Position numbers and translations under genes: made by a program. Of a DNA stretch of 64,000 bases, positions 5,201 through 64,000 are shown one piece after another. How positions within the stretch are numbered: position 1 is the stretch's first letter; every line of letters starts with the position of its first letter. The stretch is taken from positions 1 to 64,000 of the forward strand of contig NZ_JAGJCB010000020.1 of the NCBI RefSeq assembly GCF_017814435.1. The letters run 5' to 3'. The notes under the pieces were generated by a model that had not been told where the DNA came from, searched no databases, and saw nothing but the letters and a program-made list of their open reading frames with translations. This DNA comes from Mariniflexile gromovii (GTDB lineage: Bacteria; Bacteroidota; Bacteroidia; Flavobacteriales; Flavobacteriaceae).

Positions 5201-5766
5201 TTGCCGAATTTAACAATCAGTTATTCGGAATTACCTCGGCAGCAGAAGAGCAAGCAAACATTTTGGCAAACTTTATTGCGGGCGATATCAGTTGTGCTTA
5301 CAATGGTTCGGTTTTAATGAATATTTTAAAATTCAACGACTTAAACCTTTGTAGTATTGGGAATATAGATGTACCTGATAATGACGATTCTTATGAAGAA
5401 GTTATTTTCACCGATATTTCAAAACGTTATTACAAAAAATGCATCGTTAAAGACGATTTATTGATTGGTGCGGTTTTAATGGGCGACAAAAATGAGTTTG
5501 CCGAATTCAAAACCATGATTGAGAGCAAAATTGAAATGTCCGACAAGCGAAATACCTTATTACGAGGTGCTTCCAACGATGTGCCAGTAATTGGTAAGTT
5601 GGTATGCTCGTGCAGTCAGGTAGGCGCAGGAAATATAGAAGAAGCCATCAAAGGTGGATGTACAAACTTTACCGAACTGTGCAATAAAACAGGCGCTGGT
5701 TTGGGCTGCGGAAGTTGTAAAACAGAGGTTAGGGAAATTTTAAATAACACAAAGGTATTAGCATGA
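2245..5766 (+). CDS. nasA: Assimilatory nitrate reductase fused to FAD/NAD(P)H reductase and BFD [2Fe-2S] domain
   Basis: A 1173-aa fusion. Residues about 8-700 are a Nas/Nap-type molybdopterin nitrate reductase: an N-terminal 4Fe-4S motif (CSYCGVGC, then C at LCSKG), the presumed Mo-ligating Cys139 in NSRLCMSS, and a molydopterin dinucleotide-binding domain from about 588 (TTGRVRDQWHTMTKTG). Residues about 705-1080 are an FAD/NAD(P)H oxidoreductase like the NasB/NirB N-terminus (VGAGAAAFRF near 710, VGGGLLGLELAAA near 855). Residues about 1119-1165 are a BFD-type [2Fe-2S] domain (CSC ... GCGSC). Electrons could pass NAD(P)H-FAD-2Fe-2S-4Fe-4S-Mo in one chain, reducing nitrate to nitrite in the cytoplasm. 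No signal peptide is seen, which favours assimilation over periplasmic respiration. The stop overlaps the next ATG (ATGA). NasA assignment is strong; the electron path is inferred. Confidence 0.93.
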   Translation: MIKKEVKTTCSYCGVGCGIIVKKDNNDKVFVEGDKDHPVNRGMLCSKGMNLHYVVNDTSDRILYPEMRWSRSHPRERVSWDDALDRAASVFKSIIKKHGPDSVAFYVSGQSLTEEYYIANKLTKGFLGTNNIDTNSRLCMSSAVVGYKKTFGEDSVPVSYEDIELADCFLITGANPAWCHPILFRRIEQHKEKNPDVKIIVVDPRKTDSANFADLHLQLIPGTDVILYNAIGRCLFKRGLIDDDFIKNHTEGFTAYKEQIFATSIKDASRICGVPESDIRKAADIIGLSKGFISMWAMGLNQSVVGTDKNTALLNLSLITGQVGKPGSGPFSLTGQPNAMGGREVGGMANLLAVHKDLMNEEHRREVAQFWGVDKISPKPGLTATEMFDALESGKLKAVWIACTNPLVSLPNTHRIERAMKNAKFVVVQDISYKSDTVAYADLVLPAAGWLEKEGTMTNSERRISYLPKEINAPGEARPDVEIFCDFAQRMGFRGFNFNSAEEIYDEYASMTKGTKIDVSFLNYDRLKGEGTFQWPVPEYRHTGTPRLFQEKKFYTPSQKAIFNVATSIENTSLKPNEEYPLVLTTGRVRDQWHTMTKTGKVSRLKTHYPTPVLEINPVDAYLNKVKDGDITEIKSENGVVRVRAKVTENIVKGCVFLPMHWGKQLQSDLNRANNLTNTHIDPTSKEPDFKFTRVSVSKYKKPVEKIIIVGAGAAAFRFVQNYREYNEVDEIHVFSKEPNLFYNRVLLPEYVTEELSWEQLLKIKQKELGKLNIKVYPETSIQKIDSENKVVTDTNGDQHTFNKLILATGSRAFIPKDVQIDLPGRFTMRNKSDADRFKAYLDATGLPPEEQHVVIVGGGLLGLELAAAMKHKNVKITIIQRASRLMERQLDKVSSKLLALDVQERGIQIYFDNEVSTVFDDDETGELNITLKSGKFITANAIVYAIGTIPNIEIARENGIVCSRGVKVNQHLQSSNPDIFAIGEIAEFNNQLFGITSAAEEQANILANFIAGDISCAYNGSVLMNILKFNDLNLCSIGNIDVPDNDDSYEEVIFTDISKRYYKKCIVKDDLLIGAVLMGDKNEFAEFKTMIESKIEMSDKRNTLLRGASNDVPVIGKLVCSCSQVGAGNIEEAIKGGCTNFTELCNKTGAGLGCGSCKTEVREILNNTKVLA

Positions 5767-7190
5767 AGGAATCGTGTAGATTGATAGTTAATGGCGGTGT
5801 ATTGTCTCCGGGAGAATTAAAATACATTTGTGAAGCTGCCGAAAGTTTGGGTTTAGATACCATTTCATTTGGATCTAGACAAGACATTATTTTTCCAGAA
5901 CCTGTTGATATAGAAAAGCTAAGAAGTTTTGATAAGCTTCAAATTGTGGCGCCCAATCAGGTGCGTACTGAAAATATGGTGTCTTCATACGTGTCTTCAG
6001 ATATTTTTCCAAGTACCTCATGGCTTACTAGTGATAGGTATTTGTACATTTTAGAGCAATTCAAACACGAACTGAAACTACGCGTAAATGTTACCGACCC
6101 CAAACAGCGTTTAGTACCCTTGTTTACGGGGCATATCAATTTTATAGCTTCAGAGCATGAAGACTATTGGTATTTATACATCCGTCTTCCAGAATGGAAA
6201 AAAACGGTTATGTATCCGGCGCTTATTTACAGCTGGGATTTGGATAAGGTAGAGTTGGCCATTGAAAACATGTTACAAGAAGAGCCAGAAAACGTTGAAA
6301 CCATTTTTGAATTGGTAAGTGATGCCATCGATACCAACAACAGAACGGTTGATAAACCCTTGGAGGTGCCATTTTACCCATTTCCATATTACGAAGGGAT
6401 GAACCGCATTGGCGATAAATATTGGTTAGGATTGTATTGGAGAAACAACCGCTACGACCTAACATTCTTAAAAGCCATGTGCGAGTTGTGTGCCGAAAAT
6501 AAAATAGGTAAAATATCCATTACCCCATGGAAATCCTTTATTGTAAAGGGTATTCCGTTGCAAGCTAAATTGCAGTGGGAAAAGTTTTTAGGTAAATTCG
6601 GTATCAATGTACGCCATTCCATGTTGGAATTGAATTGGCATTTACCGGTGAACGATAAAGATGCTTTAAACCTTAAAAAATACTTGGTAACCAATTTCGA
6701 CCAAAACGATATCAGTACCTATGGTTTAACATTCGGACTCACCAATTACGCCAGTAGCGCCTATCATTTCACGTCTATTGTTGTAGAAAAAAACAAAAAA
6801 CCAGAAGCCCTAAGCGATTTTGTAATTCGAGATACCTACAATCTGTTGTACGCCAAAAATTTCGATCCCAACACATGCGAATACATCATGCATGTTCAGG
6901 ATGTAGATAAGGTAGAATTGCCTGGGTTGTTAATGGAATTAAGCCAGTTGTATTTTGAACAATTAGGAACCGAACGCGAGGTTGTTTCTACAAAAGATGC
7001 CATAAAGGAAACCACCGAAGAAAAAGTGTACCAGTGTAAAGATTGCCTAACTATTTATAATGAAGTGTATGGCGATATTACTCAAAACATAGCACCCAAC
7101 ACAACATTTGATAGTCTTCCAGAAACCTACGAATGTTCACTGTGCGAAGCGCCAAAAAGTAGTTTTGAGAAAAAGGTATTGGTAAAATAG
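5763..7190 (+). CDS. Degenerate sulfite/nitrite-reductase-like protein with C-terminal rubredoxin domain
   Basis: 475 aa, translationally coupled to the nitrate reductase by an ATGA overlap. Two regions resemble the ferredoxin-like half-domains of sulfite/nitrite reductases: residues 5-60 (GGVLSPGELKYICEAAESLG then FGSRQDIIF, like the family TRQ motif) and about 215-265 (GLYWRNNRYDL then ISITPWKSFIVKGI, like the family LTPW motif). The C-X5-C ... C-X3-C signature that holds the siroheme-coupled 4Fe-4S cluster is absent, so nitrite reduction by the usual mechanism is not expected. Residues 422-470 are a rubredoxin domain with Cys425, 428, 458 and 461 in canonical spacing. It could carry electrons to the nitrate reductase or to a nitrite reductase encoded elsewhere. 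Domain reading is fairly firm; the role is inferred. Confidence 0.8.
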   Translation: MKESCRLIVNGGVLSPGELKYICEAAESLGLDTISFGSRQDIIFPEPVDIEKLRSFDKLQIVAPNQVRTENMVSSYVSSDIFPSTSWLTSDRYLYILEQFKHELKLRVNVTDPKQRLVPLFTGHINFIASEHEDYWYLYIRLPEWKKTVMYPALIYSWDLDKVELAIENMLQEEPENVETIFELVSDAIDTNNRTVDKPLEVPFYPFPYYEGMNRIGDKYWLGLYWRNNRYDLTFLKAMCELCAENKIGKISITPWKSFIVKGIPLQAKLQWEKFLGKFGINVRHSMLELNWHLPVNDKDALNLKKYLVTNFDQNDISTYGLTFGLTNYASSAYHFTSIVVEKNKKPEALSDFVIRDTYNLLYAKNFDPNTCEYIMHVQDVDKVELPGLLMELSQLYFEQLGTEREVVSTKDAIKETTEEKVYQCKDCLTIYNEVYGDITQNIAPNTTFDSLPETYECSLCEAPKSSFEKKVLVK

Positions 7191-8558: not shown

Positions 8559-9255
8559 TTATAAATGCAACGCTGTGGCACGCTACAATAGCAGCAGTTT
8601 CAGTGCGTAGTCTGGTTTCACCCAAAGTTACGGGAATAAACTTGTTTTTAAGTGCCCATTCAATTTCTTTGGTGCTAAAATCGCCTTCAGGTCCAATTAA
8701 AATGGTAATGTTTTGATTGGGTTTTAGTTGTTGTTTTAACGATTTTCTATCGGTTTCTTCACAATGTGCAATAAATAAATCGCCTTCAAAATCTTGTTTT
8801 ATAAAGTCTTTAAAATTGATGGCCTCATTAAGTTTCGGCATAAAACAACTCAACGATTGTTTCATGGCCGATTGTAAAATTTTCTCATAGCGTTCGGGTT
8901 TTATAACCTTTCGTTCGCTGTGGTCGCAAATAATAGGGGTGATGCTATCAATACCAATTTCGGTAGCTTTTTCCAAAAACCATTCATAGCGGTCGTTCAT
9001 TTTGGTAGGCGCTACCGCCAAATGCAAATGATAGTTGTGTTTTTGCTGTTTAGATTTTGAAATAATATTAGCAACACATTTGTTAATATTTGGAATGGTA
9101 ATTTCGGCATCAAACAACCAGCCATTACCGTTTGTAATATGCAAAGTATCACCAACCGATTTACGAAGCACTTTTACAATATGCTTGCTTTCTTCTTTTT
9201 CAAAAGAAAATTGGGTGGTGTTTTCGGTAATGTCTGGATTGTAAAAAAGTTGCAT
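8551..9255 (-). CDS. rsmE: 16S rRNA (uracil-1498-N3)-methyltransferase RsmE
   Basis: 234 aa, the usual length for RsmE, a SPOUT methyltransferase that N3-methylates U1498 in the 30S decoding region. Visible features are the N-terminal PUA-like region (HIVKVLRKSVGD, then the DGNG-like NGNGWLFDA), the catalytic-region motif EKATEIGIDSITPI, SERKV, and the SAM-binding knot (ILIGPEGDFSTKEIEWA, then TLGETRLRTETAAI). The start overlaps the stop of the upstream PPIase gene by one base (TAATG on the coding strand), suggesting a coupled operon with DUF4159 and the PPIase. Confidence 0.95.
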   Translation of the reverse strand: MQLFYNPDITENTTQFSFEKEESKHIVKVLRKSVGDTLHITNGNGWLFDAEITIPNINKCVANIISKSKQQKHNYHLHLAVAPTKMNDRYEWFLEKATEIGIDSITPIICDHSERKVIKPERYEKILQSAMKQSLSCFMPKLNEAINFKDFIKQDFEGDLFIAHCEETDRKSLKQQLKPNQNITILIGPEGDFSTKEIEWALKNKFIPVTLGETRLRTETAAIVACHSVAFINE

Positions 9256-9899
9256 TAGTTTATAGCATCTACAATTTTTAAAACTTTGATTTCGGTAATA
9301 TCTTTAGGTTCAAAAGTTTTTAGAATAATATAGTAATTGTTTTTTTCTGGAATATCAACAGTGAAAACGTCATTAAAACTATGGTTCCCGTTGATAATTT
9401 CATTTTCAAATTCGGGTTCAAAATCTCCTTCTATAAACCAACCAGTATCTCCGCCTTTATTGGCATGGTCATCCATGGAATAGCGTTTCGCTAAAAAATC
9501 GAAAGGGGCATTACTATTTTTATACTCGTTAATCAATACGGATCTTAAGTTGTTTAAGTGTTCTATGTTTTCATATTTTGTTCCATCTAAATAAATATAT
9601 GAAACTCTGTAATATGTTTTTTTTGTTTTTTCTACTACTTTATAAATTATTCTTTCATAGCTTGTTTTTACTGTTTTCATACTTCCAGTATTAAGCTCTA
9701 AAAGTTCTTTAGCTAGTATGGTTTTGTGTTTTTCTTCATTAAAAGTAAGCAATTTATTGTCGTTTGATTTTTTTAATGCGAGATACTCACTAATCTGTTC
9801 GGGGGTTTCAATAAATTCTAATTCGTTTTCAATTAAATTTTGGGCATTCAAAAAAGCAGAACCGCTAAGGATTGCTGCGAAAAGTAGGTGTTTAATCAT
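9255..9899 (-). CDS. Secreted parvulin-like peptidyl-prolyl isomerase
   Basis: 214 aa with a signal peptide (ILSGSAFLNAQ, cleavage near residue 19). Residues about 140-205 resemble a parvulin (PPIC-type rotamase) domain: FLAKRYSMDDHANKGGDTGW, a following F-E-x-E-F-E segment, and the terminal strand YYIILKTFEPKD. It is shorter than SurA/PrsA-type foldases and has only a short N-terminal part. The likely role is proline isomerisation during folding of exported proteins in the periplasm. It is first in a tightly packed run with rsmE and DUF4159. Family assignment is fairly sure; activity is untested. Confidence 0.75.
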   Translation of the reverse strand: MIKHLLFAAILSGSAFLNAQNLIENELEFIETPEQISEYLALKKSNDNKLLTFNEEKHKTILAKELLELNTGSMKTVKTSYERIIYKVVEKTKKTYYRVSYIYLDGTKYENIEHLNNLRSVLINEYKNSNAPFDFLAKRYSMDDHANKGGDTGWFIEGDFEPEFENEIINGNHSFNDVFTVDIPEKNNYYIILKTFEPKDITEIKVLKIVDAIN

Positions 9900-9986
9900 G
9901 ATTTTGGGTTTAAATTTAACCTCAAATTTAAAGTTATTGTCGGAAAATTTAAATAGAAAGAAAATAAGTTTTTAAGAATAGATTGT

Positions 9987-10454
9987 TTACAACTTTTTAG
10001 TTCTATTGTTAAAGTAGAAATGTGCTAATATTGAAGTACATAAATTGGTAATGAATAGCATTTGAATAAAAGAAAAAATAATAAAAGATAAAGTGATAAA
10101 AGAATGGTTGTCTATGGTATCATTGAACAACGGAAATTCATTTTCGGTTTTAATTTTGTTATAATAAAATATGCCGATACTAAACATAATAACACAAGAA
10201 ATGCTTGCAATTGAATGGATTTTAGATAATAAAGTGTTTAGTTTTAAACTTGTTTTACTCAAAATCCAATAAATAAAACCTATTAAAGCAAATATGGAAG
10301 CAAAAATTATAGAAGCATCGAAATTTGAAATCACAAAGTACGTATCATGATTATTTAAAACAATCACATCTTCACTGGTTTTATAAAACATACCAATAAT
10401 AAAAATTATTACAGCAGTGAATACAAACCAGAAATACGTTTTTGAATATTTCAT
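9987..10454 (-). CDS. Four-helix membrane mini-protein resembling part of cytochrome oxidase subunit I
   Basis: 155 aa with four hydrophobic segments (about 8-24, 47-65, 80-98, 120-146). Residues 36-46 read HDTYFVISNFD, aligning with the helix-X signature HDTYYVVAHFH of heme-copper oxidase subunit I. The match continues with an I-F-A-x-x-G-x-x-x-W segment and then KIH at nearly the same distance as in subunit I. The two heme-ligand histidines of the HFH motif are Asn44 and Asp46 here, so heme binding in the usual way is not expected. It lies directly downstream of tsaD (4-nt gap), which does not inform function. Homology is my reading of the motif; the function is unknown. Confidence 0.6.
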   Translation of the reverse strand: MKYSKTYFWFVFTAVIIFIIGMFYKTSEDVIVLNNHDTYFVISNFDASIIFASIFALIGFIYWILSKTSLKLNTLLSKIHSIASISCVIMFSIGIFYYNKIKTENEFPLFNDTIDNHSFITLSFIIFSFIQMLFITNLCTSILAHFYFNNRTKKL

Positions 10455-47264: not shown

Positions 47265-48401
47265 ATGAAAATAGGCATAGTATGTTATCCTACTTTTGGA
47301 GGTAGTGGTGTGGTAGCAACCGAGTTAGGTTTAGAACTTTCTAAACGCGGTCATGAAATTCATTTCATCACCTACAACCAACCAGTTAGGTTAGAGTTAT
47401 TGAGTAATAATGTGCATTATCATGAGGTTAATGTTCCAGAATATCCATTATTTCATTACCAACCCTACGAGTTAGCTTTATCGAGTAAGTTGGTGGATAT
47501 GGTAAAACTTCATAAAATTGAAATTTTACATGTGCATTATGCTATTCCCCATGCTTATGCGGCGTATATGGCTAAAAAAATGCTCCAAGAAGAAGGTATT
47601 TTAATGCCTATTGTAACTACTTTACATGGAACAGATATCACACTTGTTGGTAGTCATCCGTTTTATAAGCCAGCAGTAACATTCAGTATTAACAAGTCTG
47701 ATGCAGTAACAGCAGTGTCACAGAGTTTAAAAGATGATACGTTGCGTTTATTCGACATTAAAAATGATATTCATGTGGTGTCTAATTTTATTGATTTAGA
47801 TAAATATAATCATAAATTTACCGATTGCCAACGCGGTATGATGGCGAATGAAAATGAAAAAATAATAACACACATTAGTAATTTACGTCCTGTAAAGCGA
47901 TCACAAGATGTTATTAGCATATTTTATAACATTCAAAAAGAAATGCCTGCAAAGCTGATGCTTATTGGTGAAGGGCCAGAACGTGAACGCATAGAATTAC
48001 GTTGTCAGGAATTAGGTATTTTAGATAAAGTTATTTTCTTCGGAAAGAGTAATGAAATTGATAAAATATTATGTTATAGCGATTTGTTTTTATTACCATC
48101 TCAAACTGAAAGTTTTGGATTGGCAGCTTTAGAAGCTATGGCATCGGGTGTTCCTGTTATATCAAGTAATACAGGTGGTATTCCAGAAGTAAATATTCAC
48201 GGCGTTTCGGGATTTTTAAGTGATGTTGGAGATATTGCAGATATGACAAAAAATGCTCTGTATATTTTAAGTGATAAAAAGCGATTAGAAACTTTTAAAG
48301 TGAATGCTAGAAAAACCGCTGAGAAATACGATTTACATACTATTGTACCACAATATGAAGCTATTTATCAGGATACTCTAGCAAAGTGTTTAGTACTATA
48401 A
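47265..48401 (+). CDS. bshA: N-acetyl-alpha-D-glucosaminyl L-malate synthase BshA
   Basis: 378 aa, GT-B fold GT4 glycosyltransferase. The N terminus MKIGIVCYPTFGGSGVVATELG is the characteristic BshA start. THLHGTDITL-type text (VTTLHGTDITLVG), NFIDLDKY and the donor-site loop LLPSQTESFGLAALEAMASG follow. It transfers GlcNAc from UDP-GlcNAc to L-malate, the first step of bacillithiol synthesis, so this organism's main low-molecular-weight thiol is probably bacillithiol. That matters for judging the glutathione-synthase-like gene at 61392. A strong terminator follows. Confidence 0.93.
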   Translation: MKIGIVCYPTFGGSGVVATELGLELSKRGHEIHFITYNQPVRLELLSNNVHYHEVNVPEYPLFHYQPYELALSSKLVDMVKLHKIEILHVHYAIPHAYAAYMAKKMLQEEGILMPIVTTLHGTDITLVGSHPFYKPAVTFSINKSDAVTAVSQSLKDDTLRLFDIKNDIHVVSNFIDLDKYNHKFTDCQRGMMANENEKIITHISNLRPVKRSQDVISIFYNIQKEMPAKLMLIGEGPERERIELRCQELGILDKVIFFGKSNEIDKILCYSDLFLLPSQTESFGLAALEAMASGVPVISSNTGGIPEVNIHGVSGFLSDVGDIADMTKNALYILSDKKRLETFKVNARKTAEKYDLHTIVPQYEAIYQDTLAKCLVL

Positions 48402-55181: not shown

Positions 55182-56210
55182 ATGAAAAATCTGCGTTACT
55201 TAGTGCTATTTATTTGTTTGAACTCCTTTTCTCAAAGTGTTAAAGTAGATACGTTGTTCTTGGCGCCCTACGAAAAAAACAAATCTTCAACTGATAAGTT
55301 AATTTATCCAATAATTAATACAGGTAACATCAAAATAGATTCGTTAATAAATTTTGATTTAAAGAATAGATACACCTTTGATGAAGCTCCAAATTTATCA
55401 GTAAGAGAAACGCTTACGCAATGGATTGGAGATCAAATAGGGTATATAGATTTCAATGTTACTTATAATCAAAACAATTTACTGTCACTAAATATCCAAA
55501 CAGAAGGTTGCGCTGCGTACTGTACGAACTGGGTATCGTATTTTAACTACAACACAAAAACAGGTGAATACTTGGAACTTAACCACATTATAGACTTATA
55601 CCAATTCAAAGAACAATTAATTACCGATAAAAGCAACCAATTTGATGGACAATTGAATGAACTGAAGGAATTGCTAAAAACCAACGAGATTAATTTAGAT
55701 GAATATAATTGGGTTCATGAATATTACATTAACTGTAAAAATAATGCTGATTTTGAGGAGTTTGCTTTGTATGATGATTATTTGCAAGTTATAGAAGAGT
55801 GTAGTCTTCCAAATGCTATAAAGAGTATGACACCACATATTGAATTAAAATATGCTTATTCTACATTAAAAAATAAACTAAAATTATCTCTTGAGGATAA
55901 AGGCCTAAATTATTACAGTAAAACCAACGATTTAGAAGTAATTTATGTAGATGCGAATACAATAAAAATAAGCTTAATGATTGCCAATGAAAATTGTGCT
56001 GTCCCCGATTTTGAAGGCGTTCTATATAAATCTAAGGAGAATACATTTGAAGGTTTTGTGTTTTCTGATAAAGGTGAAGTATATGAATCAAAGCATCATT
56101 TAAAAATACAAAAGATTAATAATGTTCTAGAAGTATCGTCAAAAGATTCTGTTGAAAATTGGCAATTAGGGGCATTTTGTTGGATTGAAGGAAAATATAC
56201 AGCTAGATAA
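55182..56210 (+). CDS. Secreted protein of unknown function, possibly DUF3298/RsiV-like
   Basis: 342 aa with a short signal peptide (LVLFICLNSFSQ, cleavage near 18). The mature region shows a plan seen in DUF3298-type proteins: paired strands (LIYPIINTGNIKIDSLINFDL ... FNVTYNQNNLLSLNI) then a phrase like YFNYNTKTGEYLELNHIID followed by helices. Three cysteines are near CAAYC (about 110). I do not recognise a firm family. Periplasmic or surface location is expected. It follows a repeat element and is about 110 bp upstream of the symporter gene. Confidence 0.6.
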   Translation: MKNLRYLVLFICLNSFSQSVKVDTLFLAPYEKNKSSTDKLIYPIINTGNIKIDSLINFDLKNRYTFDEAPNLSVRETLTQWIGDQIGYIDFNVTYNQNNLLSLNIQTEGCAAYCTNWVSYFNYNTKTGEYLELNHIIDLYQFKEQLITDKSNQFDGQLNELKELLKTNEINLDEYNWVHEYYINCKNNADFEEFALYDDYLQVIEECSLPNAIKSMTPHIELKYAYSTLKNKLKLSLEDKGLNYYSKTNDLEVIYVDANTIKISLMIANENCAVPDFEGVLYKSKENTFEGFVFSDKGEVYESKHHLKIQKINNVLEVSSKDSVENWQLGAFCWIEGKYTAR

Positions 56211-56289
56211 AGCAGTAAGTTTTATTCATTCACAACTTAGTTTAAATTCTTATCTTGCTTCAAAATTCAATAATCAACTAAAAACAATC

Positions 56290-56316
56290 CCTCTCCTTTG
56301 GAGAGGTTAGGAGAGG
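56290..56316 (+). promoter_or_regulatory. Hairpin with alternative pairing over a Shine-Dalgarno-like site
   Basis: CCTCTCC (56290-56296) is complementary to GGAGAGG at 56300-56306 (3-nt loop) and equally to GGAGAGG at 56310-56316. The second copy is part of AGGAGAGG, an SD-like site 3 nt before the ATG at 56320. The two hairpins are mutually exclusive: one leaves the site open, the other hides it. SD sites are rare in Bacteroidota, so function is uncertain; the sequence also looks like a dispersed repeat. Confidence 0.45.
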
Positions 56317-56319
56317 CTT

Positions 56320-57765
56320 ATGAAAAAACTCGCACTACACTGGAAAATATTAATAGGAATGACCCTCGGTATTATATGGGCATTACTTTCAAGTACATTA
56401 GGTTGGAGTGCATTTACAATAAATTGGATAGACCCTTTTGGTACCATTTTCATAAATTTATTAAAACTTATAGCAATTCCATTGGTGCTTTTTTCTATTA
56501 TTGGAGGCGTAGCTAATATTGGAGATCCTAAAAGCTTAGGAAGAATGGGAGGTAAAACCTTGGGTATTTACCTTGTTACCACGATAATGGCAATTTCATT
56601 AGGTTTGGTTTTGGTAAATGTGATAAAACCAGGTAAATTAATTGATGAACAAAGCAGAATTGATAACAGAATTAGTTACGAAATTTGGTCATCTTCCGAA
56701 GGTCATGAGGTAAAAGATGGTATCAATTATTTAAAAGACCCTGCGTTTTTTGAGCGTGCCCAAGAAATATCCGAATTATCAAAATCAGAATTAAAAGAAG
56801 CTTCGGTTTCAGATAAGCTCGAAAAAGCTAATAAACAACAAAGCGTCTCGCCTTTACAACCATTGGTTGATATTGTGCCAGAGAATTTCTTTGCATCTCT
56901 TTCTAATAATGGATTGATGTTGCAAATCATCTTTTTTGCCTTGTTTTTTGGAATCTGCTTATTATTCATACCAAACGACAAATCGCAACCCGTATTAGTT
57001 TTGGTTGACGGCATAAATGAAGTGTTTTTAAAAATGGTGGATTTGGTAATGCAAGGAGCTCCTTTTTTCGTATTTGCTTTATTGGCAGGTGTAGTTAGTA
57101 AAATGGCGGGTGACGATATGGGTAAAGTGATCGAAATTTTTAAAGGATTAAGTTGGTATTCATTAACCGTTTTAATCGGATTGTTGCTTATGATTTTTGT
57201 AGTATACCCAACCATATTAAAGTTGTTTGTTAAAAAGATTCCGTATTTGGGCTTTTTTAAAGCTATGGGGCCAGCACAAACCTTGGCGTTTTCAACCTCT
57301 AGTAGTGCTGCAACACTTCCGGTAACTATGGAATGTGTGGAGCAAAATTTGGGTGTAGATAAAAAAGTAAGCAGTTTTGTGTTGCCTATTGGTGCTACCG
57401 TAAATATGGATGGTACCAGTTTGTATCAAGCAGTTGCGGTTATATTTTTAGCTCAAATGCACATGATAGATTTAACCATTGGTCAGCAAATAACGGTGGT
57501 TTTAACCACTACTTTGGCATCTATTGGATCTGCCGCTGTGCCAAGTGCAGGTTTGGTTATGCTTATCATCGTTTTAAATTCTGTGGGTTTAAATCCAGCT
57601 TGGATAGCTATTATTTTTCCTGTGGACAGAATTTTAGATATGTTCAGAACCGTAGTAAATGTAACAGGCGATGCCACGGTTTGTTCTATAATTGCCGATG
57701 GTGAAAATATGCTGAATTACAAAGACGAGAAAGATCCAACCGAAACTTTTGATTTAGATTCTTAA
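56320..57765 (+). CDS. Dicarboxylate/amino acid:cation symporter (DAACS family)
   Basis: 481 aa with about eight membrane helices and two re-entrant hairpins. Family marks: HP1 AFSTSSSAATLPVTMECVE (near 325-345), TM7 GATVNMDGTSLYQA with the sodium-binding NMDGT, and HP2/TM8 GSAAVPSAGLVMLIIVL then PVDRILDMFRTVVNVTGD. The central residues (about 110-190) form a large hydrophilic insert between TM3 and TM4. It imports glutamate, aspartate or C4-dicarboxylates driven by Na+ or H+. The start at 56320 is supported by the SD-like site just upstream. Confidence 0.93.
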   Translation: MKKLALHWKILIGMTLGIIWALLSSTLGWSAFTINWIDPFGTIFINLLKLIAIPLVLFSIIGGVANIGDPKSLGRMGGKTLGIYLVTTIMAISLGLVLVNVIKPGKLIDEQSRIDNRISYEIWSSSEGHEVKDGINYLKDPAFFERAQEISELSKSELKEASVSDKLEKANKQQSVSPLQPLVDIVPENFFASLSNNGLMLQIIFFALFFGICLLFIPNDKSQPVLVLVDGINEVFLKMVDLVMQGAPFFVFALLAGVVSKMAGDDMGKVIEIFKGLSWYSLTVLIGLLLMIFVVYPTILKLFVKKIPYLGFFKAMGPAQTLAFSTSSSAATLPVTMECVEQNLGVDKKVSSFVLPIGATVNMDGTSLYQAVAVIFLAQMHMIDLTIGQQITVVLTTTLASIGSAAVPSAGLVMLIIVLNSVGLNPAWIAIIFPVDRILDMFRTVVNVTGDATVCSIIADGENMLNYKDEKDPTETFDLDS

Positions 57766-57784
57766 TATAAAACATAGGTAATTA

Positions 57785-58615
57785 ATGAGCAAAATTTCAA
57801 TCACATCTCCAGTTGTTTCAGTGTCTTGGTTAAATGACCATTTAGATGCTGAAAATTTAGTTGTATTAGATGGTTCTATAAAGAAAATAGTCAATCCTAA
57901 AATTGATTCTATTGAATTTCAAATACCAAAAACACGTTTTTTTGATTTAAAAACAGCGTTTAGTAATGAATCTGCACCGTTCCCTACTACGTTTCCATCG
58001 GAAGAGAAGTTCACTTTAGAAGCACAGGCTTTAGGTATTAATAAAAACAGTGCGATTGTGGTGTATGATGATAAAGGAATTTATTCAAGTGCCCGAGTTT
58101 GGTGGATGTTTAAAGCTATGGGGCATGATAATGTAGCAGTTTTAAATGGTGGATTGCCAGAATGGATAAAAGCAGGATATATAACAGAGGGTAAAAGCTA
58201 TTTTACTGGAGTTAAAGGAGACTTTGAGGCGCATTACAAACTAGGTTTTATGAAGTTTTATGATGATGTTAAACAGGCTTCAGAAACAAAAACCCATACC
58301 ATTATCGATGCTCGTTCTGAAGGGCGGTTTAAAAGTATAGAACCAGAACCTAGAGTTGGCTTGCGTATGGGAACCATACCAAATTCGGTTAATTTTCCTT
58401 TTGAAGATTTGTTAAAAAATAATCAATTGCTTTCAAAAAAAGTGATAGAGGCAAAATTTCAATCAATAGCTAAAAAAGAAGAGCCTATTATTTTTTCTTG
58501 TGGTTCTGGTATAACGGCTTGTATTTTGGCTTTAGGAGCTACTATTTCAGGATATGAAAACATCGCGGTATATGATGGTTCTTGGACTGAATGGGGAAGT
58601 TTAGTTTCTGAATAA
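57785..58615 (+). CDS. sseA: Thiosulfate/3-mercaptopyruvate sulfurtransferase
   Basis: 276 aa with two rhodanese domains. The N-terminal inactive domain has VSWLNDHLDAENLVVLDGS and NSAIVVYDDKGIYSSARVWWM; the C-terminal domain has IDARSEGRFKS and the active-site loop SCGSGITACI with Cys239. The loop CGSGxTA is typical of 3-mercaptopyruvate sulfurtransferases, as against CRxGxR/T in thiosulfate enzymes. It is 19 bp after the symporter and may share its transcript. A weak hairpin with a T-run follows (58622-58652). Confidence 0.9.
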   Translation: MSKISITSPVVSVSWLNDHLDAENLVVLDGSIKKIVNPKIDSIEFQIPKTRFFDLKTAFSNESAPFPTTFPSEEKFTLEAQALGINKNSAIVVYDDKGIYSSARVWWMFKAMGHDNVAVLNGGLPEWIKAGYITEGKSYFTGVKGDFEAHYKLGFMKFYDDVKQASETKTHTIIDARSEGRFKSIEPEPRVGLRMGTIPNSVNFPFEDLLKNNQLLSKKVIEAKFQSIAKKEEPIIFSCGSGITACILALGATISGYENIAVYDGSWTEWGSLVSE

Positions 58616-58621
58616 CTAAAA

Positions 58622-58652
58622 ATTTCTTAATTTGAAGAAATAAAATTTTTTT
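58622..58652 (+). terminator. Weak hairpin plus T-run
   Basis: atttctt (58622-58628) and aagaaat (58635-58641) form a 7-bp stem, then a T-run at 58646-58652, just 3 nt before the next ATG. It is nearly all A/T and therefore weak. If active it would isolate the N-formylglutamate amidohydrolase operon. Confidence 0.3.
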
Positions 58653-58654
58653 CA

Positions 58655-59488
58655 ATGGAAAAATTAGCACTTAAAGACATAATAACTAAAATAAAGAATG
58701 AAGAAATTTTTGAAGCTGTAGCTTCAGATTATTCGTTTACCATAAAGATTGAGAAGTTAGTTCCTTATGCATGTGCTGCAATACATGACGGTCATCAATT
58801 TAGGAAAGAACTTTGGTCCAATTGCATCCATTCGGAATATGAGCGCTGGTATGAGGAAGATCCTGAAACTAAAAACATGATTAAATCGCACCCAATAGTT
58901 ATTGCAGGTCGCGATTCCCGTTTTGAATACGATTTAAATCGCAGCCCAGAAGAAGCTGTTTTTGACACCGCTTGGGGAAAAGAACTTTGGCACAATCCGC
59001 TATCAGAAAAGATGAAAGACAAAAGCCTGAGAAAGCATACCAATTTTTACAAAGTGGTGCATACACTCATTGAAACTTTGGAATCAAAATTTGGGTTTTG
59101 TACGGTTTATGATATGCATAGTTACAACTGGAAACGTTGGGATAGAGAAGTGCCAACTTGGAATTTGGGAACCTCCAATCTTGATGCCACACGTTTTGAA
59201 GAAGCGATTGAAAAATGGCGATTAAGCCTTTCAAAAATCTCATTTCCTGACGGTATTAAATCTACTTCAAAAATTAACGATACCTTTCAGGGTAACGGTT
59301 ATTTTTTAAAATATATCACACAAAATTTCAAAAACACACTGGTGTTGGCTACCGAAATAGGAAAAGTGTATTGCAATGAAAGCGAACAGATTATATTTCC
59401 AGAAATTGTGACATCGGTAGAAAAGCAACTCAATATTTTACTGCCACAAAATGCCATGGAGAATTATAAAAAATATTCAAATAAATGA
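58655..59488 (+). CDS. N-formylglutamate amidohydrolase-family zinc hydrolase
   Basis: 277 aa of the N-formylglutamate amidohydrolase (HutG-like, phosphorylase/hydrolase fold) family. Visible are the N-terminal ACAAIHDGHQFRKEL (metal His), the RSPEEAVFD segment, VYDMHSYNWKRW (metal/catalytic His) and NDTFQGNGYFLKY. The histidine-pathway neighbours HutU/I/H are absent, so histidine degradation is unlikely. It is coupled by an ATGA overlap (59485-59488) to the DUF1704 gene and followed by an ATP-grasp gene. In this context it may remove a terminal acyl or glutamyl-type group from a peptide or small molecule; this is inference. Confidence 0.85.
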   Translation: MEKLALKDIITKIKNEEIFEAVASDYSFTIKIEKLVPYACAAIHDGHQFRKELWSNCIHSEYERWYEEDPETKNMIKSHPIVIAGRDSRFEYDLNRSPEEAVFDTAWGKELWHNPLSEKMKDKSLRKHTNFYKVVHTLIETLESKFGFCTVYDMHSYNWKRWDREVPTWNLGTSNLDATRFEEAIEKWRLSLSKISFPDGIKSTSKINDTFQGNGYFLKYITQNFKNTLVLATEIGKVYCNESEQIIFPEIVTSVEKQLNILLPQNAMENYKKYSNK

Positions 59489-61323
59489 TTAAAGAAAACC
59501 ATATCGATTCTGAGATTGTGGACAGGATTTGCGAAAACTTGGATTCTAAGAATCCTATTAATCAAAAATTGCCAAAAAATGGCATTCTTCATATAGATAA
59601 GTTGTTGCCGTTTATCTGTATTTACAGATTTAACATGTTAGATGTATATTTTTCTCGATTGATAAAAACGCAGGCATCTTATTTAATAGCAGATGAAACC
59701 CTAAACCTCACTCATTTAATAGAGGCTATCCGCATTATCATGGAGCAAAAATTCGCAACCTTTTTAATTCTAGAATTTTGGCCAGACAAGGATTTAAAAT
59801 CTAGTGAATTTACAATAAGAGGCCCTAAAGTAAAAGAACCAGGCACATTAAACGCTTTAAAAAAAGGGTTTGAGTCTTTAAATGCTGCCTATCCAAATAT
59901 TTCAAGCAGTACGCATGTGCAAAAGGAAAGACATCCCGAACATCTTGAACCTTTGTTGAATGACGAAATGTCAAAAAAAACAGGAACCCTAATTTTAGGA
60001 ATTTCAGTTCCAGTTCTTTACAAAAATGCCGATACTAACGAATTGTATTCACTTTTTTTTAGGGAATTTTATGCGGTTTTTTCAGAAACTGTAAAACGGG
60101 CAGCTTATGAATTTATTAGAATCCAAAATGCCGATGATTTTAAAAATTATCTTATGCTTGGAAAAACCCATTTGGATGAAATCACCCAAAAAGCGGATGA
60201 AGATCTGGCTGAAATAAGTTCTGGTATGTTCTTCTTGTTAAGAACAACTCCTGTAAATAGTAATGAAGAATGGGAGAAATTTCAAGAAAATAATTTCGAA
60301 AAAACACCCACTTTTAAATACAGGTTGATATCCTTGGATCCAGAATTAGAAAAGCGCAAACTCTACAACATACCTATTGACCAAATTGAAGATCCTACCA
60401 TTGCATTTATTTTAAGAGGAAAACGTTTGGAAATTGAAAAACAACTAACCATGTTAGAGGAGCGTGGTACGGATAACTTTCGTTATATAAGTGAAAGTCT
60501 TTATAGTACTATCAGTAAAGATGTATTAAATGAAGCTAAAAACATATTAGAAACTTATCAGAAAGGAGAAAATTCAGATGATAGTACACGATTTAATTGT
60601 TATCAATTTGCTCACTATGCTCAAATGGAATTGGATTACTACAGCGAAAAATTCCCAGATTTGGAATTGAAATTGGAAATTAGAAATGATGTGGCCGGTA
60701 TTATGGTATCAAAGTCCAAACTCTTGATAAATGATCAAATGTCTCTGGATTCCAAACGTTGCGATGCCCTCATTCAGCATGAAGTGAGCACACATATCCT
60801 TACATATTGTAATGGAAAACAACAACCATTAAATCAAATGTATGAGGGATTTGAAGGCTATGACCAGTTTCAAGAAGGGATTGCCGTAATAACAGAGTAT
60901 TTAGTGGGAGGTCTAACAATTAATAGGTTACGCCTGTTGGCAGGCAGAGTAATGGCTGTTAAATCAATGACAGAAAATGCTAGTTTTATTACGACCTTCA
61001 ATTTATTATATAAAAAATATGCTTTTCCGTCAAAAGTGGCATATAATATTACTATGCGTGTTTATAGAGGTGGTGGGTTAACTAAGGATGCTGTATATTT
61101 AGCTGGCGTTATGGACGTTTTAAAGTATATTAAAAATGGCGGTGCCCTTGAAACCTTATATACTGGCAAATTTAACATGCATCACATTAAAATTATAGAA
61201 GAATTGCTACAAAGAAATGTTTTGAAGGCTCCTGTGTTGCCACGATTCTTAGAAAGGGAAAGTGTTAAGGAACGTTTGCATCAATTGCGACATGGTATTA
61301 AGGTAACACAGTTAGTAAATTAA
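59485..61323 (+). CDS. DUF1704/MATCAP-like zinc metallopeptidase (QEGLA-motif family)
   Basis: 612 aa. Residues 1 to about 300 form a family-specific N-terminal region; the C-terminal half holds the metal site, Gln-His432-Glu433-V-S-T-His437 (HEVSTH, an HExxxH motif) and Glu464 in QFQEGIAVITEYLVGG, the position of the QEGLA signature. Bacterial members carry the misleading name flavohemoglobin expression-modulating. The eukaryotic relatives (MATCAP) are carboxypeptidases that remove the C-terminal Tyr of alpha-tubulin. No signal peptide, so cytoplasmic. It overlaps the upstream gene by ATGA and precedes an ATP-grasp ligase by 68 bp. Carboxypeptidase activity here is inferred from family. Confidence 0.85.
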   Translation: MIKENHIDSEIVDRICENLDSKNPINQKLPKNGILHIDKLLPFICIYRFNMLDVYFSRLIKTQASYLIADETLNLTHLIEAIRIIMEQKFATFLILEFWPDKDLKSSEFTIRGPKVKEPGTLNALKKGFESLNAAYPNISSSTHVQKERHPEHLEPLLNDEMSKKTGTLILGISVPVLYKNADTNELYSLFFREFYAVFSETVKRAAYEFIRIQNADDFKNYLMLGKTHLDEITQKADEDLAEISSGMFFLLRTTPVNSNEEWEKFQENNFEKTPTFKYRLISLDPELEKRKLYNIPIDQIEDPTIAFILRGKRLEIEKQLTMLEERGTDNFRYISESLYSTISKDVLNEAKNILETYQKGENSDDSTRFNCYQFAHYAQMELDYYSEKFPDLELKLEIRNDVAGIMVSKSKLLINDQMSLDSKRCDALIQHEVSTHILTYCNGKQQPLNQMYEGFEGYDQFQEGIAVITEYLVGGLTINRLRLLAGRVMAVKSMTENASFITTFNLLYKKYAFPSKVAYNITMRVYRGGGLTKDAVYLAGVMDVLKYIKNGGALETLYTGKFNMHHIKIIEELLQRNVLKAPVLPRFLERESVKERLHQLRHGIKVTQLVN

Positions 61324-61391
61324 GCGATTGAGTCCACAATTTTTCATAGGATATAGTAATATTGAAGAGTAAAACAATTAAGCTTTAAATT

Positions 61392-62432
61392 ATGAAAATT
61401 GCATTCATTATAAATGATCACGAAACAGAAAAAGTAAATTATACAACTCCAGGTTTAGGATATTCAGCATACAAGCGTGGACATGATGTTTATTTTATAG
61501 GTGTTGGAGAATTATCTTATGCATCTAAAGGTCATCTATCCATTCGTTGTAAAACCATTAAAGATGCTAATTTCAATAGTCAAGAAACTTATTTTAAAGC
61601 GCTTCAAAAAGAAAGTTTTACAACTATAAGTTCAGAAAATTTGGATATTCTTTTCTTAAGAAACAATCCCGCAGATGAGATAAATAAACGTGATTGGGCG
61701 CAAAATGCCGCATATATTTTTGGCGAGATTGCTATGAGTAATGGTGTGATTGTATTAAATCACCCTAGTAGTTTGGCTAGTGCTGTTAATAAGATGTATT
61801 TTCAACATTTTCCAGAAATTTTAAGACCTCAAACGATAGTAACACGTGACCATAATGAGATAAAAGCTTTTTTTAAAGATCAAAAACAGAAAATGATATT
61901 AAAACCTTTGCAAGGTTCTGGTGGCACCAATGTATTTATGATGGATAAAAAAAATGAACATAATCTGTCTCAAACCATTGATGCTATTTGTAGAGATGGT
62001 TTTGTAATTGCTCAAGAATATTTAACAGAAGCAAGTAATGGCGACACCAGATTGTTTTTAATGAATGGTGAACCTTTACAAGCTGATGGTAAGTATGCTA
62101 TGATGCAGCGTGTAAATGCATCTGGAGATATTCGAAGCAATATTCATGCAGGAGGAAAACCCCAACCAGCAAAAATGACGGATCAAATTATGAAATTAGC
62201 CGAACTTGTTAGACCGAAACTTGTTCAAGATGGGATGTTTTTGGTTGGACTTGATATTGTTGGAGATAAGCTTATGGAAATTAACGTGTTTAGTCCAGGA
62301 GGATTAAACGTCATCAACCAAATGTATGATGCAGATTTTTATGCACCAATTATTGAAGCTATTGAAAAAAAGGTGTATTATAAAAGTATGTATGAAGGTT
62401 ATTTACAAAATTCCCGATTGGCTACCCTGTAA
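61392..62432 (+). CDS. GshB-like ATP-grasp ligase
   Basis: 346 aa, with a pre-ATP-grasp domain (MKIAFIINDHETEKVNYTT) and an ATP-grasp fold. Lys171 in MILKPLQGSGGTNVF is the nucleotide-binding Lys and glycine loop; Glu296 and Asn298 in MEINVFSPGG are Mg ligands. It is like glutathione synthetase GshB but shorter context clues oppose that role: no gshA is in the window and bshA indicates bacillithiol. ATP-grasp ligases of this kind attach an amino acid or peptide to a carboxylate. Coupled with a carboxypeptidase-type enzyme, it may add a residue the other removes. Substrate unknown. Confidence 0.85.
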   Translation: MKIAFIINDHETEKVNYTTPGLGYSAYKRGHDVYFIGVGELSYASKGHLSIRCKTIKDANFNSQETYFKALQKESFTTISSENLDILFLRNNPADEINKRDWAQNAAYIFGEIAMSNGVIVLNHPSSLASAVNKMYFQHFPEILRPQTIVTRDHNEIKAFFKDQKQKMILKPLQGSGGTNVFMMDKKNEHNLSQTIDAICRDGFVIAQEYLTEASNGDTRLFLMNGEPLQADGKYAMMQRVNASGDIRSNIHAGGKPQPAKMTDQIMKLAELVRPKLVQDGMFLVGLDIVGDKLMEINVFSPGGLNVINQMYDADFYAPIIEAIEKKVYYKSMYEGYLQNSRLATL

Positions 62433-62437
62433 TTTTC

Positions 62438-62872
62438 TCATTCCAAAAACTTACTCTTTAATTCGGGAGTAGGTATCCAACACGATTCTTTTTTTCCATA
62501 CCATTTGTATCGGTTTTTCGCAATATAATCATATACCCAATTGCGGATAAATGGTGGAATAATAAAAAATACAATCATTAAGTTTTGTGGAAACCCCAAA
62601 TGACTTGCTATTTTTATAGCTGCTGTAGATTTTGAAACCACACCTTGTTCTGGAGTGTATAACAATATAGAATCTGTTTTGTTGGTGTCTATATTATATT
62701 CTTTAATAATTTCTTGACCAGCATCACTTTGTAATGCCGTAAACATAAATACATTTTGTTTATCATGTTCAATAACATATTGAACCGAACTGTTGCAAAG
62801 GTTGCAAACCCCGTCGAATAAAATTAGTTTTTTATGGTTTGGAATATCTACTTTCACAATGTAAAAATACAA
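62438..62872 (-). CDS. DCC-family thiol-disulfide oxidoreductase-like protein (DUF393)
   Basis: 144 aa. The N-terminal signature FDGVCNLCNSSVQYVIEHD matches the DCC family, named for its Asp-Cys-Cys motif (D-G-V-C-x-x-C), which resembles a thioredoxin-type CxxC. FTALQSDAGQEI and ILLYTPEQGVVSKSTA follow, and the C-terminal part has a hydrophobic segment (LMIVFFIIPPFIRNWVYDYI) as in the family. A redox function is presumed. It is convergent with the ATP-grasp gene (5-nt gap) and only 7 bp downstream of the TPR regulator gene on the same strand. Confidence 0.88.
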   Translation of the reverse strand: MYFYIVKVDIPNHKKLILFDGVCNLCNSSVQYVIEHDKQNVFMFTALQSDAGQEIIKEYNIDTNKTDSILLYTPEQGVVSKSTAAIKIASHLGFPQNLMIVFFIIPPFIRNWVYDYIAKNRYKWYGKKESCWIPTPELKSKFLE

Positions 62873-62879
62873 TAAGCTT

Positions 62880-64000
62880 TTAAATTGTGTTTAAAAATTG
62901 CGTTAAATCTGTTTCGGAGTTTAAATTCAGTTTTTTCTTTAACCGGTATTTAGATTTCAAAACACTTTCAGGCAAAACGTTAAGCATGGATGCGATTTCT
63001 TTGGTTGAAAGATTCATGTGTAAAAAAGCCGCTAATCTAATTTCCTTTTCAGTGATGTCACTTGAAATCGATTTGATTTTCTCATCAAAATTGTTGTGTA
63101 CTTCAGAGAAATAGGATTTGAACACTTCCCAATCTTTATCTTCTGCACTTTCTTTTTTTAATAACATTACAAGACGTCTAAATTCAATTTTAAATAACTC
63201 TGGCGATTGTTTTATTTTTTCTAAATTTTCTTTTAATTCCTGTATAAATGTGTTTTTTTGAACCAAATGAAGTGTTTGAGATGCCAATTCTTTCTTTTTA
63301 AATTCAATTTCTTGCTTATAGATTTCTTCTTGAGCTTCACGTTCAATTCTATTCTTTTTCATACGCTGTTTAAAACCAAAAAACAAAAGACCTGATACAG
63401 CTAAAAAGGTGAACATACCACCCGCATAAAGTCCTTTTCTTAAATTACTAATCTCAACTTTCTGGTTTAAGGTTTTTATTTCTTCTTGTTGTAAGGCTAT
63501 TTCAGTTTCCTTTTTTTCGGTTTCGTAAATGGTTTTTAGTTCTTCAATTTGTTGGTGTTTTTTTATATTAAATAGGCTATCATTTATTTTTTGGGATTCT
63601 TTTAAATATAAAACAGCATCTTTGGTGCTATTCATTTTAAAAAGTATTTCGGAACGAAACTTATAAAGATCTTTTAAATGTGGTAATGTACCCATGGGTT
63701 TTGATAGAGCTATGGCTTTGTCATTATAATTTAGAGCTTCTGAAAATTTGTTGGAATGATAATCAACTTTTGATAAACCGTCAAGAGCATTTGCCAAACT
63801 TAATTGAAGGTTTTCTTTTTCAGCTATATCTTTCGCGTTTAAAAGCAGTTGTTTTGCGTTTGAATAGTTTTTGTTTAAAATTTCTAATTCAGCTAAATTG
63901 TGTAAGATGTTTGAAAGTGATAATTTGTCTTCCACTTCTTTGGAGTATTCTATAGCTAAATCATAACACTTTTTTGCGTTTTCGTAATTTTTTAAATTTT
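62880..64000 (-). CDS. TPR/membrane/LuxR-type HTH regulator (5' end outside window)
   Basis: Partial: the frame stays open to base 64000 and its upstream codons continue the TPR pattern (YENAKKCYDLAIEY), so the gene starts beyond the window; a GTG at 63935 is internal. What is present, at least 373 residues, shows TPR repeats, a coiled region, one membrane helix (YAGGMFTFLAVSGLLFFGF), another coiled coil and a C-terminal HTH resembling LuxR/GerE (ITEKEIRLAAFLHMNLSTKEIASMLNV). This layout is that of Bacteroidota two-part membrane regulators that lack a kinase. The signal and target are unknown. Confidence 0.8.
   Translation of the reverse strand, partial: NLKNYENAKKCYDLAIEYSKEVEDKLSLSNILHNLAELEILNKNYSNAKQLLLNAKDIAEKENLQLSLANALDGLSKVDYHSNKFSEALNYNDKAIALSKPMGTLPHLKDLYKFRSEILFKMNSTKDAVLYLKESQKINDSLFNIKKHQQIEELKTIYETEKKETEIALQQEEIKTLNQKVEISNLRKGLYAGGMFTFLAVSGLLFFGFKQRMKKNRIEREAQEEIYKQEIEFKKKELASQTLHLVQKNTFIQELKENLEKIKQSPELFKIEFRRLVMLLKKESAEDKDWEVFKSYFSEVHNNFDEKIKSISSDITEKEIRLAAFLHMNLSTKEIASMLNVLPESVLKSKYRLKKKLNLNSETDLTQFLNTI

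Follow-up and report, generated by a model that had tools for sequence, protein, structure and literature searches.

We analyzed a 64,000-nucleotide stretch of the Mariniflexile gromovii genome (contig NZ_JAGJCB010000020.1, positions 1 to 64,000; in the following, the window), which carries adjacent genes for an N-formylglutamate amidohydrolase-like protein (FGase), a metallopeptidase of the MATCAP/DUF1704 family and a GshB-like ATP-grasp ligase. We use the term cassette for a unit that recurs in many phyla and combines a GshB-fold ligase, a MATCAP-fold HExxxH metallopeptidase and an amidohydrolase of the FGase or AstE type. A previous reading made from the sequence only (the sequence-only reading) had described three genes on one strand with the first two coupled by ATGA. 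We found the open reading frames (ORFs) at these positions on the plus strand, with the ATGA at 59485 forming the overlap of the FGase and MATCAP genes and a gap of 68 bases between the MATCAP and ATP-grasp genes:

58655..59488, + strand: FGase, N-formylglutamate amidohydrolase-like, lineage A (PF05013, 3.3e-12)
59485..61323, + strand: long MATCAP/DUF1704 metallopeptidase, lineage B, 612 residues (PF08014, 1.9e-94)
59506..60129, + strand: degenerate FGase domain, N-terminal in the MATCAP protein, about residues 8-215 (hhalign against FGase)
61392..62432, + strand: GshB-like ATP-grasp amide ligase, type B, 346 residues (NF009110/PRK12458, 432.7 bits, cut-off 408)

The FGase and the MATCAP protein both passed the cut-offs of their families, with 47.5 against a curated 28.9 bits for PF05013 and 317.1 against 27 bits for PF08014, respectively. 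The motifs named in the sequence-only reading are likewise intact: H432, E433 and H437 of the HEVSTH motif as well as Glu464 are invariant in 46 long MATCAPs, and Lys171, Glu296 and Asn298 of the ligase in 38 ligases.

Co-occurrence within and beyond the phylum

Within the phylum we surveyed 395 genomes, where most counts rest on related genomes that are not independent of each other. MATCAP was present in 19 of them. A PRK12458 ATP-grasp ligase scoring above 390 bits was found in 18 of these 19 genomes versus 0 of the 376 others, 17 of the 18 exceeding the curated cut-off and the next best genome reaching 215 bits, and MATCAP lay within ~2.3 kb of this ligase in 18/18 genomes. FGase occurred in 49 of the 395 genomes, comprising 16/19 with MATCAP and 33/376 without. 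The corresponding Fisher p values were 3e-30 for ligase and MATCAP and 2e-13 for FGase and MATCAP, treating the genomes as independent though they are related. The co-occurrence check put forward in the sequence-only reading thus revealed an association of the three families far beyond chance. In the neighbourhoods retrieved from the remaining 18 MATCAP genomes, FGase was clustered or fused in 14, an AstE/AspA-like enzyme stood in its place in three (L046, L047, L049), and genome G204 (L032) contained a lone MATCAP; with the window included, FGase is part of the cluster in 15/19 MATCAP genomes. The distribution of the cassette is patchy, and none of five same-genus genomes carried it.

Beyond the phylum, the single window MATCAP as query found no genome relative, whereas an alignment query did. 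This alignment-based scan of named genomes yielded at least 561 MATCAP relatives, of which the best 80 loci were kept, so that the sample leans to window-like MATCAPs; neighbourhood counts were made on all open frames. In these best 80 loci, stemming from about ten phyla, a ligase was present in 80/80. In 76 loci it immediately follows MATCAP, co-directional and at a distance of at most 150 bases, and in four it is placed otherwise (L065, L079, L096, L128; two on the other strand). The ligase frame is in two pieces in L055 and L075 and runs off the contig end in L093. FGase was present in 56/80 loci, 51 times immediately preceding MATCAP by these criteria of strand and distance, and an AstE/AspA-like enzyme in 15/80, with 0/80 loci containing both. 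The hosts comprise Bacteroidota genera, Planctomycetota, Campylobacterales, Calditrichaeota, Acidobacteria, Gemmatimonadota, Verrucomicrobia and Kiritimatiellae, Poribacteria, Desulfobacterales, Polyangiaceae and Gammaproteobacteria. On planctomycete and gemmatimonadote contigs (L067, L070, L087) the MATCAP-ligase pair or the ligase occurs in tandem copies.

MATCAP matches were also detected in 117 of 72,556 plasmid records, mostly rhizobial, 113 of them with at least 80% query coverage. Eight plasmid regions were opened, five of which were annotated there; four of these five showed the order FGase-MATCAP-ligase (L130, L131, L184, L185), and the fifth, from S. meliloti pSymB (L182), contained FGase and MATCAP together with an unannotated ligase ORF. 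The sole MATCAP-like match in phage records was found in Pseudomonas phage Y1 (OQ572403.1, 63521-64540), with 24.5% over half of the query.

The three proteins and their lineages

The predicted structure of the window ligase (predicted local distance difference test score, pLDDT, 91.3) matched 1gsa best (E 1.4e-25, template-modelling score, TM, 0.89 by target length), with RimK as the next structural neighbour after GshB. In a ligase set of 81 rows, K171 was kept in 80/80, E296 in 75/77 and N298 in 76/77 of the rows with a letter. The window ligase nevertheless stayed under both GshB equivalog cut-offs (215.7 versus 272 for NF003573, 202 versus 299.05 for TIGR01380) as well as under that of rimK_fam (79.8 versus 143.4 bits). 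Two type-A ligases scanned reached 279.4 and 291.7 bits, over one GshB cut-off (272) and under the other. Searching the window's own genome for the gshA families PF04262 and PF04107 gave 0 matches each. Among 23 MATCAP genomes of the phylum, PF04262 was found in 0/23 and PF04107, a family that also includes other ligases, in 7/23; PF04262 was present in 2/10 cassette carriers from other phyla. BshC was found in 23/23 of the MATCAP genomes, a count taken over MATCAP-positive genomes only, from which we derive no claim on a link to bacillithiol.

True GshBs and cassette ligases were sought in 12 chosen genomes, namely one of the Desulfobacterales and 11 of the class to which a Kangiellaceae genome belongs. 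Ten of them had a GshB above the cut-off, and 7/12 encoded a true GshB plus a cassette ligase beside MATCAP, the latter scoring 174-237 bits. The motif following the catalytic Glu-x-Asn was SPT[CG] in 10/10 true GshBs, 9/10 having an R after SPT, whereas 12/13 cassette ligases showed SPGG and 1/13 TPGG at these residues, which we take to be substrate-binding. The corresponding stretch of the window ligase is NVFSPGGLNV, lacking the GshB motif SPT[CG] followed by R-E/Q, and position 303 is Gly in 76/77 rows with a letter; R-E was kept by one type-A cassette ligase (L008). Because no gshA was found, the scores were below the cut-offs, the motif is changed and a true GshB coexists in 7/12 genomes, the window ligase is, judged by its sequence, not the cell's glutathione synthetase, in line with the expectation of the sequence-only reading that true glutathione synthesis is unlikely.

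For the MATCAP protein, the predicted structure (pLDDT 92.6) matched human MATCAP best in the PDB (7z6s, E 3.4e-9, TM 0.70 by target length). The human MATCAP fold was also recovered by profile search (2.4e-16), compared to an E of 0.57 with the single sequence. Against the QEGLA family TIGR02421 the protein scored 319.6 bits, under the cut-off of 338.65, which other cassette MATCAPs such as L182 and L037 passed. Residues ~8-215 matched FGase (hhalign 96.1%, E 3.2e-9), whereas control comparisons of this amino-terminal domain yielded 0.7% for the ligase profile and 0.9% for the AstE profile; a comparison with the MATCAP core gave 81.9%, aligned only over the stretch common to both alignments. 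Lower Foldseek matches of the model comprised M14 carboxypeptidases, poly-gamma-glutamate hydrolase and the FGase 2q7s (E 0.018 and 0.048, TM 0.39-0.42), the latter lending weak support to the domain assignment since many purine nucleoside phosphorylases score alike and aligned ranges were not given.

In 10/10 long MATCAPs aligned, HxGH and DLNR are absent from the amino-terminal domain and DxH is changed to Ex[W/Y/F], with the ATE[IV] glutamate retained in 5/10. None of the His residues of this domain is invariant among the 46 sequences, three columns having His in 32, 30 and 16 of 46. P42, R48, E97 and G172 are invariant in all 46, suggesting that the degenerate FGase domain retains a role. 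At the aroC slot of locus L010 (genome G012), following an SDF symporter, we observed a short MATCAP (8907-10058) that has lost its motifs (HEIGVN, QAGL) and has neither FGase nor ligase alongside, apparently a dead remnant; the same genome contains a second cluster of MATCAP, ligase and AstE at another place.

The FGase retains HDGH (44-47), DLNR (93-96) and DxH (153-155), to which we ascribe a metal role, and these columns are conserved in 16 sequences. A sequence search with it gave no solved-structure relative. Comparison with AstE by hhalign indicated no homology (2.1%), yet HDGH/HGNE, DLNR/DLNR and DxH/DxH align, so that the swap of FGase for AstE looks like a replacement by like chemistry. 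Two cassette AstE-like proteins were scanned, and both fell well short of the equivalog cut-offs for AstE and AspA. FGase and AstE take their names from N-acyl acidic amino acids, and their interchange points to substrates of this class. FGase genes were also observed next to GCS2-family ligases (G190:C42 9793-11599, G229:C5 281408-283239, G204:C3 209438-211257) and near an ATP-grasp protein of 480-490 residues (G390:C1, G338:C1), an arrangement suggestive of another FGase-ligase system distinct from the cassette.

The cassettes fall into two lineages. Lineage A encodes FGase and MATCAP either separately or as one fused chain. We found seven such fusions (L007, L008, L037, L166, L168, L171, L183), confirmed by Pfam for L037 and L183, and a type-A ligase adjoins six of the seven. 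A GSHS-MATCAP fusion in L048 (956-residue open frame) was rejected, as its two matches lie in different frames by coordinates. Lineage-B MATCAPs, including that of the window, comprise ~605-645 residues with the degenerate FGase domain. Trees of 35 FGase rows and 42 MATCAP rows, quick IQ-TREE runs supported by the Shimodaira-Hasegawa-like approximate likelihood ratio test (SH-aLRT) only, placed the FGases of the window, L038, L039, L050-L052 and L073 in lineage A (SH-aLRT 100) and their MATCAPs in lineage B (SH-aLRT 100). According to these trees, the window operon is a chimera of a lineage-A FGase and a lineage-B MATCAP. BLAST and profile score, and not a tree, assign its ligase to type B. 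The occurrence of a lineage-B MATCAP-ligase pair beside a lineage-A FGase suggests that both lineages act on the same kind of substrate. Type-A and type-B ligases stand together in one operon in G122, G137 and Winogradskyella L051. Mantel correlations for the MATCAP, ligase and FGase distances were r = 0.82, 0.80 and 0.72, with 0/2000 permutations as high, values that could also arise from shared ancestry of the hosts alone.

Genomic surroundings of the cassette

In the window, the cassette is the downstream part of a co-directional run of five genes: SDF symporter, rhodanese, FGase, MATCAP and ATP-grasp. The two accessory genes of this run, and bshA, which the sequence-only reading had correctly placed within the window, are:

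56320..57765, + strand: SDF-family amino-acid/dicarboxylate symporter, accessory (PF00375, 1.1e-119; nearest model GltP, 253.8 versus a cut-off of 638 bits)
57785..58615, + strand: rhodanese / 3-mercaptopyruvate sulfurtransferase-like protein, accessory (PF00581, 5.6e-26; 198.4 versus a cut-off of 250)
47265-48401, in the window: bshA (TIGR03999, 567.7 bits)

An SDF symporter occupies the corresponding slot in the Flavobacteriaceae relatives L011, L033-L036, L038, L039 and L050-L052. The rhodanese was found in some relatives only (L011, L038, L041, L042, L051) and not seen in L033-L036 and L039. Between rhodanese and FGase, an ORF of ~110 residues was observed in L041 (5212-5538), L042 (5231-5569) and L051 (6118-6450); the two scanned, those of L041 and L051, had no Pfam match. 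PADLOC anti-phage models matched none of the five proteins of the run (0 families at E 0.01). Within 56100-62900, promoter-like matches numbered 22, no excess over shuffles (mean 28.9), and terminator-like matches 11 versus a shuffle mean of 4.4, most of them within genes or on the opposite strand. Elsewhere in the window, positions 2245-7190 encode a 1173-residue protein that combines molybdopterin oxidoreductase, pyridine-nucleotide reductase and BFD domains, followed by a protein with a rubredoxin and a nitrite/sulfite reductase half-domain.

Neighbours within 6 kb of the 80 loci, with overlapping ORFs dropped, were grouped by single-linkage clustering, and the best 40 groups, cut at four loci, were looked at. 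None of these groups represented an additional partner conserved everywhere beside the cassette. Groups crossing phyla comprised sigma-54 type regulators (10/80, e.g. L128 4351-5766), BrkB (7/80, e.g. L096 10429-11427), CorA (6/80, e.g. L104 5223-6296) and MscS-like channels (4/80, e.g. L117 10335-11276), each named by Pfam from one member and, as no background was taken, leads only. Further BrkB genes occur in L043 and L131, a mechanosensitive channel in L185 and Mrp antiporter genes in L184. These neighbours possibly hint at an ion or osmotic context. A small conserved peptide near the operon, as raised in the sequence-only reading, did not emerge: among ORFs of at least 70-90 residues, shorter genes not being looked for, none for a small peptide turned up repeatedly at the cassette in different phyla, which makes the small-peptide-target version less likely.

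Proposed function and relation to known systems

We tentatively propose, at somewhat less than even confidence, that the three enzymes form a transferable cassette assembling and dismantling an amide-linked acidic compound, such as an acyl- or gamma-glutamyl-type peptide. The ligase would activate the carboxylate of an acidic compound (e.g. an N-acyl-glutamate or gamma-glutamyl compound) as acyl phosphate and then couple it to an amino acid. MATCAP would act as a carboxypeptidase taking off the C-terminal residue, and the amidohydrolase would cleave the N-acyl cap off the acidic amino acid thus freed. Two hydrolases acting in sequence would account for the fusion of FGase and MATCAP. For lineage B, we envisage that the FGase portion of the fusion decayed to a binding domain and that catalysis passed to a free FGase or AstE. 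An add/remove cycle, an analogy to tubulin chemistry and the removal of an acyl group by the amidohydrolase had already been put forward in the sequence-only reading; all three are still inferences, with which the replacement of FGase by an AstE/AspA-type enzyme in 15/80 loci is consistent. Phrased as a class, and held about as tentatively, this could be an undescribed bacterial reversible peptide-bond cycle of ATP-grasp ligase, MATCAP carboxypeptidase and N-acyl-amino-acid hydrolase, exchanged between phyla as a unit, which would act on a new N-acylated acidic peptide metabolite or a protein tail as a counterpart of the eukaryotic ligase/MATCAP tubulin chemistry. Searches of one open-access library listed no description of the operon.

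The expression data considered come from Photobacterium damselae, for which PMC10308900 reports a GshB (RS17020) 38-fold and the QEGLA protein (RS17025), an adjacent tag, 27-fold up at 1% versus 3% NaCl. In Photobacterium sp. DA100 (L183) the gene of a type-A ligase overlaps that of a fused FGase-MATCAP protein, from which we infer that RS17020-RS17025 represents a type-A cassette.

Several observations weigh against the proposed metabolite cycle. Neither FGase nor AstE was found in 9/80 loci, two of them owing to a contig end, and 3/15 AstE genes lie convergently on the opposite strand, indicating looser cassette membership. In the class of the Kangiellaceae genome, where MATCAP occurs in 35/229 genomes, 16/20 fetched gammaproteobacterial regions contain MATCAP without FGase and without cassette ligase, indicating that the MATCAP family also works alone; the other 4/20 are cassettes or fusions (L166, L168, L171, L180). 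The neighbour-group analysis tied no substrate or acyltransferase gene to the cassette. The strong induction in P. damselae at low and not high salt, as reported in PMC10308900, speaks against simple osmolyte synthesis, and an osmolyte reading of the cassette is weakened accordingly. Furthermore, human MATCAP works on protein tails and not on small peptides, according to PMC10499314.

The main rival is a protein-tail tagging cycle, since the MATCAPs characterised in PMC10499314 and PMC13269789 act on tubulin tails. Here the ATP-grasp ligase would add a residue to the C-terminus or a side chain of a cellular protein and MATCAP would remove it, as in TTL/MATCAP or RimK/RimB on ribosomal protein S6. 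The removal of C-terminal residues from tubulin by human MATCAP/TMCP and the common HExxxH motif with Glu as third ligand, described in PMC10499314, are consistent with such a cycle, as are the structural proximity of the ligase to RimK, the 52-fold increase of P. damselae RimK at low salt alongside the GshB and QEGLA genes (PMC10308900), and a short gammaproteobacterial MATCAP lying convergent to genes for a RimK ligase and a RimB-like retropepsin (L172 6448-9101). We nevertheless consider it less likely, as the ligase scores under the RimK-family cut-off with GshB as its best fold match, the core includes an amidohydrolase of small-molecule type, and no link between the cassette and a target protein emerged.

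Less probable still is a purely degradative or salvage function, in which an acidic acyl peptide would be taken up and broken down with the ATP-grasp enzyme only reactivating a product: hydrolases make up two of the three enzymes and are fused in some members of lineage A, and in Flavobacteriaceae a symporter and a sulfurtransferase join the cassette, but the ligase is its most constant partner, present in all of the best 80 loci. A role in the metabolism of glutathione or gamma-glutamylcysteine, suggested by the common name, could draw on the GshB fold, on the single equivalog cut-off passed by the two type-A ligases and on PF04262 in two of the ten carriers of other phyla. The sub-cut-off scores of the window ligase, the lack of gshA matches in its genome, the seven genomes pairing a cassette ligase with a true GshB and the replacement of SPT[CG] by SPGG/TPGG render it very improbable and already largely rule it out. 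The absence from all five same-genus genomes might speak for genes that are neighbours by chance or only loosely, with no function in common, but this reading is refuted by the counts and by the order, overlaps and fusions conserved across phyla, leaving it a negligible probability.

In public records the cassette proteins go by the names of glutathione synthetase, flavohemoglobin-modulating protein and N-formylglutamate amidohydrolase. Of these names, the first and second are probably misleading; that common names hide the function had been suspected in the sequence-only reading and is supported here. A published transcriptome reads what is probably a cassette ligase as glutathione synthetase (PMC10308900). 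Genes predicted to build and to cut amide bonds, kept as a cassette in many phyla under misleading names, suggest an undescribed make-and-unmake pathway; the cassette spans about ten phyla as well as rhizobial megaplasmids such as pSymB. With a well-defined unit, two lineages and natural examples of a fusion, an enzyme swap and a chimera at hand, the question of its substrate is directly testable, and the answer would also reveal a role of MATCAP outside tubulin.

Among known systems, the cassette FGase shares family and a comparable motif set with HutG/AstE/aspartoacylase, but no histidine or arginine breakdown genes were noted alongside it. The osmolyte dipeptide system of N-acetylglutaminylglutamine amide (NAGGN) consists of an ATP-grasp peptide ligase adjoining a peptidase, an arrangement the cassette resembles, although the NAGGN synthetase model TIGR03103 gave no match to the window ligase in the NCBIfam list at E 0.001. 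The ligase has the fold and conserved ATP-grasp residues of E. coli GshB; unlike the latter it shows an altered motif after Glu-x-Asn, has no gshA in the window genome and coexists with true GshB elsewhere. RimK-RimB, which modifies ribosomal S6, likewise combines an ATP-grasp ligase and a protease in a conserved cluster, but its protease belongs to another family and the cassette ligase is under the rimK_fam cut-off. In the tubulin tyrosination cycle, tubulin tyrosine ligase (TTL) is a relative of the ATP-grasp enzymes. The cassette differs from that cycle in being bacterial and organized as an operon, in its GshB-type ligase and extra FGase/AstE amidohydrolase and in having no tubulin target shown, but is alike in that a MATCAP-fold HExxxH metallopeptidase (MATCAP/TMCP) opposes an ATP-grasp-type ligase.

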